A stretch of DNA of 64,000 nucleotides from an uncultured Cytophagales bacterium (lineage in GTDB: Bacteria > Bacteroidota > Bacteroidia > Cytophagales > Thermoflexibacteraceae): contig CALHUI010000003.1 in assembly GCA_938039675.1 (NCBI GenBank), positions 248,001 to 312,000 of the forward strand, given 5' to 3'. This document shows, piece by piece, positions 42,922-47,752 of the stretch. Positions within the stretch are counted from its first letter, which is position 1. Every line of letters starts with the position of its first letter. The notes beneath the pieces are model-generated. The model did no database searches. It saw nothing but the letters and a program-made list of their open reading frames with translations, and was not told the origin of the DNA. A program made the translations under genes and the position numbers.

Positions 42922-43713
42922 TCAATGCGCGCTTTCCCGCAGAAAATCTGCCAGTGCAAGGGCAGGATTTACCGCTTTCATGAAATTTTCACCCATCAGA
43001 AAGCCTTGAAAACCAAATTGTTGTAGTTCGCGAACTTCCCAAAGGCTGCTGATACCGCTTTCCGAAATGCTCGGCACGCCCGAAGGTATCAAGCGACTCA
43101 ACCGCTTGGAAACCTCCAAGCTCACTTCAAAAGTTTTGAGGTTGCGGTTGTTTACGCCTACCATGTCTATTTCGGGAAAAAAACTGCGTTCCAATTCTTC
43201 CTCGTCGTGTACTTCTAAGAGCACTTCCAGTCCCAATCCGTGCGCGGTGCGCGTGAATTGACGAATTTCGGCGGGAGTGAGCGCAGCGGCAATGAGCAGG
43301 ATTAAATCTGCACCTAATGCTTTGGCTTGAATAATCTGATAATCCGAAACGGTAAAATCTTTTCGCAAAATTGGGATTTCAACGGCAGCGCGGGCAACTT
43401 GTAAGTCTGCATTGCTTCCGCCAAAAAAACTTATATCTGTAAGTACCGATATTGCTGCTGCGCCTGCCTCTTGATAGCCGCGGGCAACTTCGGCTGGCTG
43501 TGCATGGGCGTTAATTACTCCTTTGGAAGGCGATTGTTTTTTAAACTCGGCAATGATATGCGGCAGTTCCGAAGGGGTTTGCAGGCGTTTTTTCAGCGAA
43601 ACCGTTGGGCGGCCGAACAGCGGGCATTGCTCCAATTGTGCCGAAGTAACCGCCTTCATGGCAGCGGCTACTTCGGTCTTTTTATGGGCAATTATCTTTT
43701 GCAGGATGTCCAT
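42922..43713 (-). CDS. trpC: Indole-3-glycerol phosphate synthase
   Basis: 263 residues, a TIM barrel: ILQKIIAHKKTEVA, HIIAEFKKQSPSKGVIN, ISVLTDISFFGGSNADLQ, ILRKDFTVSDYQIIQAKALGAD, VGVNNRNLKTFEVSLE and SESGISS. It closes the indole ring in tryptophan synthesis. Last visible gene of the trp operon, three bases after a small reading frame. The N-terminal KFKXXSPS-type lysine and the glutamate of LLEVHDEEEL are present. Confidence 0.96.
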   Translation of the reverse strand: MDILQKIIAHKKTEVAAAMKAVTSAQLEQCPLFGRPTVSLKKRLQTPSELPHIIAEFKKQSPSKGVINAHAQPAEVARGYQEAGAAAISVLTDISFFGGSNADLQVARAAVEIPILRKDFTVSDYQIIQAKALGADLILLIAAALTPAEIRQFTRTAHGLGLEVLLEVHDEEELERSFFPEIDMVGVNNRNLKTFEVSLEVSKRLSRLIPSGVPSISESGISSLWEVRELQQFGFQGFLMGENFMKAVNPALALADFLRESAH

Positions 43714-43943: not shown

Positions 43944-44939
43944 TTATGATTGATAATTGACAAGTTTTTTGAACGAATGGAGTGCTTTTTTACTCATCAG
44001 CGAATCGGTAGCTTGTGCTACGGCATCGGCAACAGGCAGTGCGGGATTTACGGTTCGCAGTGCCATGGCGGCATTGGCTACCACGACTTCATTTTGCGCC
44101 TGTGTGCCTCTGCCTTCCAGAATTTCGGTGAAAATTTTGGCTGCTTCCTCTACGGTTTTGCCGCCGTAGAGGCTTTCCTGCGTTTTGGCACTGAACCCGA
44201 AGTCTTGCGCCTGCAGTACGCGCTCGCCTTGAGCATCAATGACTTTACAGGGCGAGGTGAGCGAAATTTCATCATAACCGTCTAAACTGTGAACAACGGC
44301 AAATTTTTTACCCGTTTGCTGGTACAAATAGCCGTATTTGCGTGCCAATTCAAGGCTGAAAACTCCGACAAACTGGTAATCAGGGAAGGCAGGATTAACC
44401 ATTGGCCCTAACATATTGAAAAATGTTTTGACACCCAGTTCGCGGCGTACAGGGGCTACGTTCTTCATAGCGGGGTGGAACATCGGCGCGTGAAGAAAGG
44501 CAATATTGGCGCTGTCCAACATGTGCAGTAACTCATCTTGGTTGTTGGTAAAGCGATAGCCGAAATATTCCAGCATGTTAGATGACCCCGAGACCGAAGA
44601 AACGCCGTAGTTGCCGTGTTTAACTACTTTCACGCCTGCACCTGCCACTACAAATGCCACTAACGTGCTGATATTGAAGGTGTCTTTGGCATCGCCGCCC
44701 GTTCCGCATACATCAATGGCGGGCATACCTTGCGTATCGAACGGGATGCAGAGTTCCAGCATGGCATCGCGGAATCCCCCCAACTCCTCTACGGTGATGC
44801 TGCGCATGAGGAAAACGGTCATAAAAGCGGCCATTTGGCTGTTGTTGTATTGCCCCCGCGCCAAATTAATAAACACTTCGCGGGCAGTGGCTTTGTCTAG
44901 GGTTTTGTGTTCAAAAAGGTGATTGAGGATTTCTTTCAT
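43944..44939 (-). CDS. trpD: Anthranilate phosphoribosyltransferase
   Basis: 331 residues. GTGGDAKDTFNIS (PRPP-binding glycine-rich site), VVKHGNYGVSSVSGSSNMLEYFGYRF and AMKNVAPVRRELGVKTFFNMLGPM are classic. It joins anthranilate to PRPP. Ten bases after trpG and 20 before the small frame; all on the minus strand. Confidence 0.97.
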   Translation of the reverse strand: MKEILNHLFEHKTLDKATAREVFINLARGQYNNSQMAAFMTVFLMRSITVEELGGFRDAMLELCIPFDTQGMPAIDVCGTGGDAKDTFNISTLVAFVVAGAGVKVVKHGNYGVSSVSGSSNMLEYFGYRFTNNQDELLHMLDSANIAFLHAPMFHPAMKNVAPVRRELGVKTFFNMLGPMVNPAFPDYQFVGVFSLELARKYGYLYQQTGKKFAVVHSLDGYDEISLTSPCKVIDAQGERVLQAQDFGFSAKTQESLYGGKTVEEAAKIFTEILEGRGTQAQNEVVVANAAMALRTVNPALPVADAVAQATDSLMSKKALHSFKKLVNYQS

Positions 44940-44949
44940 GGTCGTTGGA

Positions 44950-45516
44950 TTAATTTTTCAGCCAATTAGCAATCATCTGTTGCCCATAGTCTGTAATGTA
45001 GGATTCGGGATGAAATTGCACACCCTGCACGTCGTATTGGCGGTGGCGCAGCGCCATAATGTTGCCCGCCGCATCTTCGGCGGTGATTTCCAGCACTTCG
45101 GGGAAATCCTCGCGGCGCACAATCCACGAATGGTAGCGGCAGGTCTTAACGCTATTGGGAATACCTTCAAACAACGTGTTTTCGTGTTTGAGCACAGTAG
45201 TTTCGGTGGCTATGCCGTGCATTACTTCTCCCAGATTGACCAATGAGCCGCCAAAAGCCTCACCGATGGCCTGATGCCCCAAGCATACACCCAAAATGGA
45301 CTTCTCAGGGGCATAGCGGCGAATCAGTTCGGGCATGATGCCTGCATCGGCGGGCAGCCCCGGCCCGGGCGACAGCAGAATTTTGTCGTAGGCTGCCACT
45401 TCGTCCAAACTGATTTTGTCGTTGCGGTGCACATCGGGCGCAGCGCCCAGCACTTTGAGCAAGTGCACCAGATTGTAGGTAAATGAATCGTAATTGTCTA
45501 AGACCAGAATTTTCAT
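44950..45516 (-). CDS. trpG: Anthranilate synthase glutamine amidotransferase component
   Basis: 188 residues, class I glutaminase: MKILVLDNYDSFTYNL, C78 in GVCLGHQAIGEAFGG, H169 and E171 in VQFHPES. It supplies ammonia to TrpE. No trpE is found upstream or elsewhere in the window, so the large subunit is encoded elsewhere. It is the first structural gene behind the attenuator at 45535-45567; the start is 18 bases past the terminator stem. The enzyme could also serve p-aminobenzoate synthesis, as TrpG does in several bacteria. Confidence 0.95.
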   Translation of the reverse strand: MKILVLDNYDSFTYNLVHLLKVLGAAPDVHRNDKISLDEVAAYDKILLSPGPGLPADAGIMPELIRRYAPEKSILGVCLGHQAIGEAFGGSLVNLGEVMHGIATETTVLKHENTLFEGIPNSVKTCRYHSWIVRREDFPEVLEITAEDAAGNIMALRHRQYDVQGVQFHPESYITDYGQQMIANWLKN

Positions 45517-45534
45517 GTGTTTCAGGGCAAAACA

Positions 45535-45567
45535 AAAAGGCTTGCTGCGGTGAACAGCAAGCCTTTT
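45535..45567 (-). terminator. trp attenuator terminator
   Basis: On the minus strand AAAAGGCTTGCTG (45567-45555) pairs with CAGCAAGCCTTTT (45547-45535) around a 7-base loop TTCACCG, followed by T-rich sequence. The 5' half plus loop (GCTTGCTGTTCAC) can instead pair with GTGAACAG-TAGCC at 45616-45604, which ends the leader-peptide frame. Mutually exclusive terminator and antiterminator hairpins are thus visible. Confidence 0.85.
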
Positions 45568-45605
45568 CGAGGTTTTTTTAATTTATCATCGGTTGCGACA
45601 ATAGG

Positions 45606-45674
45606 CTACTGTTCACACGGACGCCCCATGTGCCAGAACCAACAGTTAAAGTATATCGCGCCTTGACTTTTCAT
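45606..45674 (-). CDS. trpL: trp operon leader peptide
   Basis: A 22-codon frame from ATG 45674 to TAG 45606 with Trp at positions 12 and 14 (residues 10-15 NCWFWH), in a short peptide also rich in aromatic residues (YF). Stem 1:2 (45645-45609) places the Trp codons in its 5' arm (CUGUU...CACAUGG pairing with CCGUGUG...AACAG). A ribosome stalled at UGG-UUC-UGG would open it and free GUGAACAG for the antiterminator. This is the textbook layout of transcription attenuation, placed directly before trpG. Confidence 0.85.
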   Translation of the reverse strand: MKSQGAIYFNCWFWHMGRPCEQ

Positions 45675-45681
45675 TACTCGG

Positions 45682-45713
45682 CAAAGTAGCAGAACGGTTT
45701 TGTTAATTCCAAA
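45682..45713 (-). promoter_or_regulatory. Promoter of the trp operon
   Basis: TTTG (45713-45710), 20 bases, then CTACTTTG (45689-45682), close to the Bacteroidota pattern TTTG-N19-21-TAnnTTTG. The predicted start, about 6-7 bases past the G, lies at 45676-45675, one or two bases before the leader ATG, so the leader transcript may be leaderless. Confidence 0.55.
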
Positions 45714-45822
45714 TTTCTCGATTTATTTTTTGTTTAATAACGTACTAAGGCAAGATGCCTGAGTTATATGTAGAATTGATTTTTTAGAAAACAGACAAAA
45801 AATTAACCGTAAGTGTTTTTGG

Positions 45823-47505
45823 TTAATATCGGTTCAGAATTTTATCCAGAATCTTGGCAGTGATGAGATAAGTCGGCTTAACACCAATTGCCCCCAGACT
45901 ACCCGAAGCCAAAGTACTGCCCGTAACTAAGGGATTATCAGAGGCATAATAGGCATAGCGCAGGATGACATCTTTGCTGATGTTTTTGCGGATTTTGGCG
46001 GCTGCCTGAATGGCTTTTTGGTAATGAGCGCCTTCCATTTCCAGTCCGATAGCCTGCCATGACGAATTTTTGAAGTAGGAAAGCACGTCTTTGTTTTGCA
46101 GCGATGTCCCCAAAACAGTAATCATTGCCCCTTCAATTACTTTCAGTCCACAACCCTCAAAATCGGCAGCGGTGAAGTCGTTGTCAAAGGGGTAATTGTC
46201 GGCAGTGCCTTCAAAAACATGTGAAGTGGGAATCATCAGGTCGCCTTTTTCGCCTTCCAGAATACCTGCTTTGCCCATAATGGAAATAGAGGCAACATTG
46301 AGCCGCACATCCCCCTTGAGGCTTTGATAAGGCTTCAGTAGTTCGTCCATTGTTTCATAGGCTTGTTCGCCAAAGGCGTAGTCCATAACCAAAATCACGG
46401 GCTGATGTGCCTCTATGTATTCGCAGTTGAGCACAATATCGGGGTGCATTTTGAGTCGCAGCAGGCAGGTGGTATCAAAAATCTGCACGGGGATGTTGGC
46501 ACCCGAATCTTCGTAGAGAAATGAGCCGCCGTTTTGCTCGGCAAAAAACTCGATTTCATCGCGCAGCTCTTTGTTTTCAGGCTTGCTGATTTCTAATGCC
46601 ATGTTTTCCAAATCCATGTTTTGGAAGTGCTTGGGCAGGGCGGCGTAGGCATACAAACAGTTCAGCACGCTGTGCGGATTGGCACTGATGATGTGTAACG
46701 GGCGGCTAATTAGTTGATTTTCAGATAAAAATCGTTTGATGTTGCTTGCCCATCGCTCGCCGTAGATATGATGCCCGATGCGCTCGCGCAGGGCAGGGGA
46801 GAAACTGATTTCGCGGTCTTTGCCGTGCAGGAATTCTTCTATGGCTAATTTACCCATCCAGTACACAATGTGGAACAAACCATTGTTGGCTTTCGGATTT
46901 TCTGCCAGCCGTTGCCAAGCGCGTTTGGTTTCTTCAAAGGTGCGCCCAAGCAGTGTGCTGAGATAAGTAAATGCAATTTCCTTGTTTTGCTCTTCGGTGT
47001 GTCCGGTTACAATAGCTTCCAATTGCAACCATTCGCGGCTGTACTGTCCTTTGTCGTTGATGGCACGCCGGCGGATTTTTTCGGCTTCATTGTACAGAAA
47101 GGTCAGGTGAGTCAGTGTGTCGTAAATTTCGCTGCGCCCCCGCGTAATTTCCATAAACATCTGCTCTTCGTCTATGCGGTAGCAATTGCGCTTGCGCTTG
47201 GGAGGAATGATGGTGGGAAATCCCGATGCATGGTAGCCTTCTTCGGAAATAAATTTGATGAAGCGGCACTCTTCAACGCCCTTGGGCAGTCGGTCTATGA
47301 CATAGACCAAGCCATCGAGTTCAACTTTTTTGGCATCGTTGATAGAGCCATAAATTTCAGGCCGCAGCGACAGCAGGGCTTCGTTCACTTCACGACCGGA
47401 TACACCGAAGGGCTTGTAAAAGCCGCGGTTGAACAAATGGCGCATTTCAATGTAGAGTTTTTCTATCGCAGCGCGTGATTCCTGCGCACGTGTGAGCTCC
47501 GGCAT
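45823..47505 (-). CDS. Conserved protein with nucleosidase/phosphorylase-like C-terminal part
   Basis: 560 residues, cytosolic. The N-terminal ~330 residues are helical (QESRAAIEKLYIEMRHLFNRGFYKPFG; GHTEEQNKEIAFTYLSTLLGRTFEETKRAWQ). The C-terminal ~220 residues recall purine-nucleoside phosphorylase/AMP nucleosidase folds: HQPVILVMDYAFGEQAYETMDELL, ISIMGKAGILEGEKGDLMIPTSHVFEGT, and WQAIGLEMEGAHYQKAIQAA, where EMEG resembles the catalytic MEGA motif of that superfamily. I recall it as a Bacteroidota DUF (DUF6909-type), function unknown. It stops 109 bases before the trp promoter. Confidence 0.75.
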   Translation of the reverse strand: MPELTRAQESRAAIEKLYIEMRHLFNRGFYKPFGVSGREVNEALLSLRPEIYGSINDAKKVELDGLVYVIDRLPKGVEECRFIKFISEEGYHASGFPTIIPPKRKRNCYRIDEEQMFMEITRGRSEIYDTLTHLTFLYNEAEKIRRRAINDKGQYSREWLQLEAIVTGHTEEQNKEIAFTYLSTLLGRTFEETKRAWQRLAENPKANNGLFHIVYWMGKLAIEEFLHGKDREISFSPALRERIGHHIYGERWASNIKRFLSENQLISRPLHIISANPHSVLNCLYAYAALPKHFQNMDLENMALEISKPENKELRDEIEFFAEQNGGSFLYEDSGANIPVQIFDTTCLLRLKMHPDIVLNCEYIEAHQPVILVMDYAFGEQAYETMDELLKPYQSLKGDVRLNVASISIMGKAGILEGEKGDLMIPTSHVFEGTADNYPFDNDFTAADFEGCGLKVIEGAMITVLGTSLQNKDVLSYFKNSSWQAIGLEMEGAHYQKAIQAAAKIRKNISKDVILRYAYYASDNPLVTGSTLASGSLGAIGVKPTYLITAKILDKILNRY

Positions 47506-47598: not shown

Positions 47599-47629
47599 TT
47601 TGGAAATGATGAATTTGTCTTTAATTTTG
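47599..47629 (+). promoter_or_regulatory. Promoter of the SRP RNA
   Basis: TTTG (47599-47602), 19 bases, TAATTTTG (47622-47629): an exact match to the Bacteroidota consensus. The 5' end of the RNA helix begins 5 bases later. Confidence 0.75.
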
Positions 47630-47633
47630 TACC

Positions 47634-47722
47634 GCAAGCCGGTATGACCAGCTCCTGCGAACCCCTCCAGGACCGGAAGGTAGCAAAGGTAAGCGGTTGT
47701 AGCGGTGCAATACTTGGCTTGC
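47634..47722 (+). ncRNA. ffs: Signal recognition particle RNA, small bacterial (4.5S) type
   Basis: About 89 nt. GCAAGCC (47634-47640) pairs with GGCTTGC (47716-47722). The diagnostic apical loop and symmetric internal loop read CCAGGACCGGAAGGTAGCAA (47668-47687 region). A T-run follows directly. It binds Ffh and guides inner-membrane proteins to the Sec machinery. It lies 31 bases upstream of the fsa-like gene on the same strand. Confidence 0.93.
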
Positions 47723-47752
47723 TTTTTTCTCCTCACCTATTTTCTTCCTCCC

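Follow-up and report, generated by a model that had tools for sequence, protein, structure and literature searches.

A probable ribosome-mediated trp attenuator upstream of trpGDC in an uncultured Cytophagales bacterium, a divergent variant of a switch already catalogued in Bacteroidota

The trpGDC locus and its leader frame

The stretch of DNA analyzed here (64,000 nucleotides of an uncultured Cytophagales bacterium, referred to below as the window, with positions counted from its first letter) carries trpG, trpD and trpC on its minus strand (Table 1). The first of these encodes an anthranilate synthase component II and is assigned to tryptophan synthesis from its position beside trpD and trpC; it heads the trpG-trpD-trpC set. 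All the parts of the element described below lie on the same strand, between trpG and a gene for a DUF6909 protein of unknown function, and a small SRP RNA is found beyond the latter. The trpE of this genome, taken as its best chorismate-binding match, is unlinked to trpGDC, and its neighbor is a divergent frame that appears by eye to be trpF. No W-rich leader was seen before this trpE, no W-rich frame in the 1500 nt upstream of the genome's own trpB, and no aromatic leader before its own DAHP synthase.

Table 1. Positions of genes, promoter elements and RNA segments at the trpG leader and around it.
Feature	Position	Strand	Basis or remark
trpC	42922..43713	-	NCBIfam NF001377, above cut-off
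trpD	43944..44939	-	NCBIfam TIGR01245, above cut-off
trpG, anthranilate synthase component II	44950..45516	-	NCBIfam TIGR00566, above cut-off
Intrinsic terminator hairpin and U-rich tail (predicted)	45529..45567	-	folding; covariation in the genus
Segment 3, CUGUUCAC, antiterminator partner in terminator arm and loop	45550..45557	-	sequence, folding
Outer stem, 3' arm, just past the leader stop codon	45595..45600	-	folds and covariation count
Leader ORF, 22 codons and TAG	45606..45674	-	ATG at 45674, stop at 45608-45606
Segment 2, GUGUGAACAG, competing partner, within codons 19-22	45609..45618	-	sequence
1:2 structure, upper hairpin	45614..45632	-	8 pairs, 45632-45625 with 45621-45614
1:2 structure, lower stem, 5' arm (codons 10-12)	45640..45645	-	pairs with 45611-45606
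Outer stem, 5' arm (codons 6-7)	45654..45659	-	pairs with 45600-45595
Predicted transcription start	45675..45677	-	from box position; 5' UTR of ~1-3 nt
-7 element, TACTTTGC	45681..45688	-	sequence; one base shorter than TAnnTTTG
-33 element, TTTG	45710..45713	-	sequence; spacing to the -7 box 21 nt by eye
DUF6909 protein	45823-47505	-	gene directly upstream of the trp leader
Small SRP RNA	47627-47728	+	Rfam RF04183 match

The leader frame encodes the peptide MKSQGAIYFNCWFWHMGRPCEQ and has UGG-UUC-UGG at codons 12-14 (Trp codons at 45641-45639 and 45635-45633), just as a preliminary description of this DNA, made from its letters alone, had read it. Its ATG is located 158 nt from trpG in the window and 151-155 nt in three congeners, whose peptides are MKNRGAIFFGYWFWHMGNPCEQ, MSIQSATYFAYWFWYMGYPCEQ and MRKQRATYFAYWFWCMGFPCEQ. 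Frame and Trp codons were kept in all four genus members searched, with no indels within the ORF across the four species and with indels in the spacer. What is expected of a ribosome-mediated trp attenuator at this level, a conserved short ORF with clustered Trp codons before a trp gene, is therefore found here. The residues NCWFWH had been put forward as a possible conserved signature, of which WFW is indeed invariant in the four genus members and the N, C and H vary. Elsewhere among the loci examined, WFW appeared in one genome of a further genus of the same family (G009) and in four genomes of one further family.

The promoter claimed in the preliminary description is present, and we can specify its type as that of Bacteroidota, with a -7 box one base short of TAnnTTTG. 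At the position of the -33 element all four genus members have AAATTTG. The -7 box of the window has two mismatches to the strict TAnnTTTG and fits only as TAnnTTGY, a form described for Flavobacterium psychrophilum, or with a one-base-short spacer; the boxes of the four members are TACTTTGC (twice), TAATTTGC and TACATTTG, and the strict form occurs in one of them. The G of the TTTG in this box is placed exactly 7 nt before the leader ATG in all four (by eye). Since the -7 box of the main sigma factor, TAnnTTTG, is described as spanning -12 to -5 (PMC9723704, PMC6847099), the leader of the window is probably near-leaderless and would be translated from almost the first base of the message.

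RNA structures and their covariation

The whole leader folds better than all of 200 shuffled sequences (z -3.5). Its outermost helix, missed in the preliminary description, is present and covarying: the six pairs of this outer stem are standard in all four species and one of them shows a compensatory change. Inside it lies the 1:2 structure that contains the Trp codons. Its genus-conserved lower stem (CUGUUG/CAGUAG in the window) is an 8-pair helix in three species, with two compensatory pairs, and keeps 6 of the 8 pairs in the window, whose minimum-energy fold on its own prefers another pairing. The 8 pairs of the upper hairpin are 100% standard in the four species, with one-sided changes only. 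By energy alone the 1:2 region is unremarkable (z -1.1, with 27 of 200 shuffles equally good), and the support for the 1:2 hairpin described earlier comes instead from conservation and covariation in the genus; helices 1-3 include, among these few sequences, three pairs with two-sided changes, eight with one-sided changes and one with an unpaired cell only.

The stretch said to pair with the 5' half and loop of the terminator was found as an exact complement, GUGAACAG (45616-45609) being the reverse complement of CUGUUCAC (45557-45550). The fold of segments 2 and 3 was not equaled by any of 200 shuffles (z -5.1). All 8 of the GUGAACAG:CUGUUCAC pairs are formed in the four species; as none of them varies within the genus, covariation offers no support for this antiterminator pairing. 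The terminator hairpin reported before trpG proved strong, with a 12-bp stem when folded alone (-18.9 kcal/mol, z -5.0, 1 of 200 shuffles equally good) and two pairs with compensatory changes within the genus; together with its U-rich tail, this argues for an intrinsic terminator between the leader stop codon and trpG.

A MAFFT alignment (A1) of the genus with distant family members misaligned the outer stem, and for this reason covariation was counted on the four genus members only (the window and three congeners), over a named structure of 33 pairs. Standard pairs filled 98.5% of the cells, and five pairs had changed on both sides; the lower 1:2 stem and the terminator contain two each and the outer stem one. 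Sliding the partners left 0-1 such pairs. In a control of 500 shuffles, 2 or 3 matched the observed value for four measures and 32 did so for the fifth, which admits further pair types. The check in relatives proposed with the preliminary description, for a conserved frame and for compensating stem pairs, thus found both and left the attenuator standing.

Folding with the ribosome in place

The best explanation for this arrangement, and one in which we have high confidence, is a ribosome-mediated transcription attenuator controlling trpGDC. In the mechanism that we infer, transcription would start about 1-3 nt before the leader AUG and the ribosome would load onto the 5' end of the emerging transcript. 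If tRNA-Trp is charged, the ribosome would reach the stop codon and cover segment 2, and the terminator would form before trpG. With scarce tRNA-Trp it would stall at codons 12-14, opening the 1:2 structure (outer stem and inner hairpin); segment 2 could then pair with segment 3, the terminator would be pre-empted and trpGDC would be transcribed. Without translation, the 1:2 structure would form and transcription would end.

We have examined this scheme by placing the ribosome by hand, codon by codon, and barring from pairing all RNA as far as 14 nt beyond the start of the P-site codon (counted from its first base). In the four genus members, 13-15 nt of the terminator 5' arm and loop paired upstream with the A-site at codons 12-16, and 2-7 nt with the A-site at the stop codon. 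Most earlier A-site positions already gave 11-14 nt, and the antiterminator was lost only beyond codon 17. Given this broad maximum, folding explains termination with the ribosome at the stop codon, but not the choice of Trp codons. When the full transcript was folded with the ribosome at the Trp codons, the terminator was still the minimum-energy structure in three of the four genus members, the window included, and hence the antiterminator would have to win kinetically by forming first, as is generally held for such attenuators. G009 departs from this folding pattern. The complete trp attenuator of the preliminary description is supported by the frame, Trp codons, stems and terminator kept in all four genus members, by the covariance search presented below and, less specifically, by the ribosome-position folding.

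Leaders in the family and siblings before DAHP synthase

Four other genomes of the family (G008, G009, G011 and G012) were inspected singly. In three of them (G008, G011 and G012, from a sister genus), trpG is preceded by leaders whose peptides are not those of the window's genus (MIKTNSYNLAWLWWQTKFSC is one), and the minimum-energy folds contain an outer stem, likewise of another sequence, in a comparable position. G009 has a leader, MKNALSFGFYWFWHTAGPRERMSY, before the gene preceding trpG and lacks the CUGUUCAC core. This leader lies 878-803 nt before trpG, and the intervening gene resembles by eye the DJ-1/PfpI type. Directly before trpG, no leader was found in five further family genomes (G004, G005, G006, G007 and G010, the last with only ~320 nt of upstream sequence), and two of these (G005 and G007) have a leader before trpE.

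The same plan is found more than once in the sister genus. G012 has three copies, before trpE (MKQHHTFGKLAWWHSSKLL), before trpG and before the DAHP synthase/chorismate mutase gene, and G008 and G011 have it at least before trpG and DAHP synthase. The trpE attenuator of G012, on contig 52, has a long outer stem. In all three genomes the ATG of the DAHP-synthase leader is located 193-226 nt upstream of the DAHP synthase/chorismate mutase start, the peptide is rich in Phe and Tyr (YFSFYYFWY; for example MNLMNNTYFSFYYFWYDKIV), and an outer stem, a segment 2 and a CUGUUCA terminator arm are seen as in the trp attenuator. The DAHP-synthase leader is a putative sibling attenuator that would respond to another amino acid. 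In the ribosome-position folding, the YYFWY codons gave the highest antiterminator values in G008 and G011, with some early codons tying in G012. No comparable leader was found before DAHP synthase in the other 10 family genomes, those of the window's genus included. Small Phe/Tyr-rich frames, for example MKLFNTYYFGYFYYFSKSRG, were also noted ~1.0-1.2 kb upstream of DAHP synthase at 7 of 29 loci of a wider sample and probably belong to the preceding gene.

The leader of the window (AIYFNCWFWH) and that of one congener (ATYFAYWFWY) look like a mix of the Trp and the Phe/Tyr kinds, and common descent of the window leader with the DAHP-synthase leaders may be guessed from this resemblance. An alternative to a Trp-specific response would be that the leader senses aromatic amino acids generally, through the Y/F8, F9 and F13 codons that flank the Trp codons and are kept in all four species, and that it may share its descent with the Phe/Tyr leaders of the sister genus, of which the YFSFYYFWY siblings in three genomes are an example. 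The UUC of codon 13 is explicable by its pairing with segment 2 (by eye). Codons 8-9 have no partner in the conserved structure, and their conservation is not accounted for by pairing. With the ribosome at codons 8-9, the antiterminator still takes up 11-13 nt of the terminator arm, as it does with the ribosome at other early codons. However, U-rich codons are common in A+T-rich leaders, and trpGDC serve Trp synthesis only. We consider general aromatic sensing unlikely and retain attenuation in response to Trp as the preferred reading.

Covariance search and known RNA families

A covariance model (R1) was built solely from the four genus sequences and searched over 291 genomes of the order, 119 of which had a match at E 0.05 or better (these E-values are rough and include some chance matches). 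The genes were examined at 30 R1 loci, four of them those of the genus itself, and at the family loci. Outside the genus, 24 of the 26 R1 loci were situated directly before trpE or trpG and the other two before DAHP synthase. At four loci of another family of the order, the trpE leaders read GFWFWYW or GFWFWQW, as against the usual WWW run.

The preliminary description had considered such an attenuator of note for its occurrence in Bacteroidota. This is not supported, as Rfam already has such an RNA, RF01692 (Bacteroid-trp), listed in a table of Weinberg et al. (2010; PMC2864571). This family had no match in the window at its gathering score (49 bits), nor in 45450-45850 up to E 10, and none in the window's genus up to E 1, nor at E 0.05 in an order-wide search. 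It reached the gathering score at 2 of 20 loci (Flavobacterium terrae and Olleya marilimosa); among 194 genomes of the order, 7 were above the cut-off and 18 matched at E 0.05. The R1 places overlap 15 of the 19 RF01692 places listed for the order. The element in the window would work like Bacteroid-trp, fails the RF01692 threshold and is very probably related to it. The attenuator is thus a divergent variant of a switch already catalogued in Bacteroidota and not a new kind. In a literature search of titles and abstracts, we found no trpG-linked or near-leaderless trp leader from Bacteroidota, although Vitreschak et al. (2004) and Lopatovskaya et al. (2010) may have treated some of it.

Other families gave little in the window. 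RF00513 was not among the matches up to E 10. Thr_leader scored 30.5 bits and Phe_leader 16.7 bits, each against a gathering score of 55; these weak matches were taken as shared terminator features and set aside, as was a Thr_leader match of 34.1 bits in G002, another genome of the comparison. Neither a T-box family nor a riboswitch matched. A sensor of a metabolite or a protein (a T-box, or a Trp-binding RNA or protein), for which translation would be irrelevant, has nothing in its favor and is hence very improbable, the more so as the frame and its Trp codons have been kept although the sequence itself has changed.

Trp leaders before trpE across the phylum

The wider occurrence of such leaders was surveyed at 181 loci (80 named ones and further genomes of the phylum), of which 23 (6 among the 80) were dropped because no trpE start could be set. 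We counted as W-rich leader any ATG frame of 8-45 codons with WW or WxW within 400 nt upstream of trpE. One was found at 140 of the 158 loci (131 with WW), compared with a mean of 2.45 and a maximum of 5 in 20 rounds of dinucleotide shuffles. Among the 18 loci without such a leader, 14 are named, and 10 of these 14 belong to Bacteroidales (Prevotella, Bacteroides, Paludibacter and others). RF01692 does match Bacteroides ihuae, a control genome, despite these Bacteroidales loci. Two Bacteroidales loci (L028 and L078) counted as leaders resemble coding sequence by eye and may be false positives. The rows include near relatives and are not independent events; removal of duplicates left 138 or 131 leaders for the analyses that follow.

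A terminator-like hairpin was present between leader and trpE for 129 of 131 distinct leaders, against 4 of 131 in shuffles. Helices of at least 8 pairs that join the terminator arm to sequence past the last Trp codon were in modest excess (27/129 vs 10/129 in shuffles). At least 3 expected pairs between the codons before the first Trp and the region past the stop were seen in 110 of 131 leaders and in 70 of 131 shuffles. This recurrence of the arrangement before trpE in many genomes also bears on the reading of the hairpin in the window as a mere terminator of the DUF6909 gene, with a small frame present by chance. That gene does lie upstream on the same strand and ends at 45823, but it is followed by a promoter, a frame free of indels and covarying stems before the hairpin is reached, and we give this reading hardly any weight. 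The attenuator remains by far the better account of the hairpin.

As to where these leaders begin, a strict TAHHTTTG ending 3-9 nt before the in-frame ATG was found for 50 of 138 distinct leaders. In 50 rounds of shuffles the mean was 5.4 and the highest count 8; the box was so placed at none of 156 trpE start codons and at 1 of 614 other ATGs in these regions. With one mismatch allowed, a count made without a shuffle control, 71 of 138 leaders had a box within 9 nt (peak at 4-8), 42 had it at 10-30 nt (peak at 17) and 25 had none up to 30 nt. Of the 113 leaders with a box, 69 carry a TTTG 18-22 nt upstream of it, compared with 2-15 of 113 at control offsets. By these counts, a near-leaderless start is suggested for 50 of the 138 trp leaders with the strict box and for 71 with one mismatch, and for the group with a box within 9 nt the box position predicts 5' UTRs of ~0-4 nt. 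In F. johnsoniae, a 5' UTR of ~11-14 nt would be expected from the spacing of the box in Flavobacterium. Nucleotides 1-12 were less paired in the 131 leaders than in shuffles (0.23-0.33 vs 0.34-0.52), and pairing climbs from nt 13. For comparison, leaderless mRNAs are given as 5.5% in F. psychrophilum (PMC9723704), predicted leaders of up to 10 nt make up 13% in F. johnsoniae, and in B. thetaiotaomicron ~3.7% of 5' UTRs are shorter than 10 nt.

A broader hypothesis can be drawn from these patterns, namely that aromatic attenuators on one RNA plan extend across the phylum; that about half of the trp leader peptides are leaderless or nearly so, with the first 12 nt open and stems from nt 13, where such mRNAs are otherwise rare; and that copies of the plan arose within genomes and acquired new targets through codon swaps, the YF..WFW leader of the window being a re-targeted copy. 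We put this forward tentatively, as a possibility that we would not yet favor.

Comparison with known systems

A W-rich leader and a terminator-like hairpin precede most sampled trpE genes of the phylum, and 7 of 194 order genomes score above the cut-off of the Rfam model. The interest of the locus lies mainly in the predicted near-leaderless start and in the putative re-targeted siblings. Should the near-leaderless start be correct, attenuation in Bacteroidota, which lack Shine-Dalgarno initiation, would depend on ribosome loading at the 5' end, as described for leaders of Sinorhizobium and Streptomyces, and would offer a tractable case for transcription-translation coupling in this phylum. 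With the trp and DAHP-synthase siblings, the way in which an attenuator switches to another amino acid could be tested directly.

The E. coli trp attenuator (RF00513, Trp_leader) has its Trp codons in segment 1 and works through 1:2, 2:3 and 3:4 pairing, a logic that the window element shares. Unlike it, the window element is not expected to have a 5' UTR with a Shine-Dalgarno sequence, and its segment 2 lies inside the last leader codons. The G009 leader gave a weak match to RF00513 (25.2 bits vs a gathering score of 41). With RF01692 the window shares the phylum, a leader with Trp codons, a 1:2 stem running from early codons past the stop, and a AAAAAGGCUUG terminator arm; it differs in having WFW where the consensus has a UGG-UGG run, and in standing before trpG and not trpE.

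In the same phylum, RNA work in F. psychrophilum has given strong clues for leader-peptide attenuation, with leaders preceding amino-acid operons, and with structured elements upstream of pheA and hisG (PMC9723704); we found no trpG-linked, WFW or near-leaderless form described there. The closest parallels for the predicted start are found in other phyla, in trpL of S. meliloti (PMC7298713) and trpL1 of S. lividans (PMC8079986), where the leader is translated from the 5' end of the transcript and the start sites come from RNA data, whereas the one proposed here is deduced from the promoter box.
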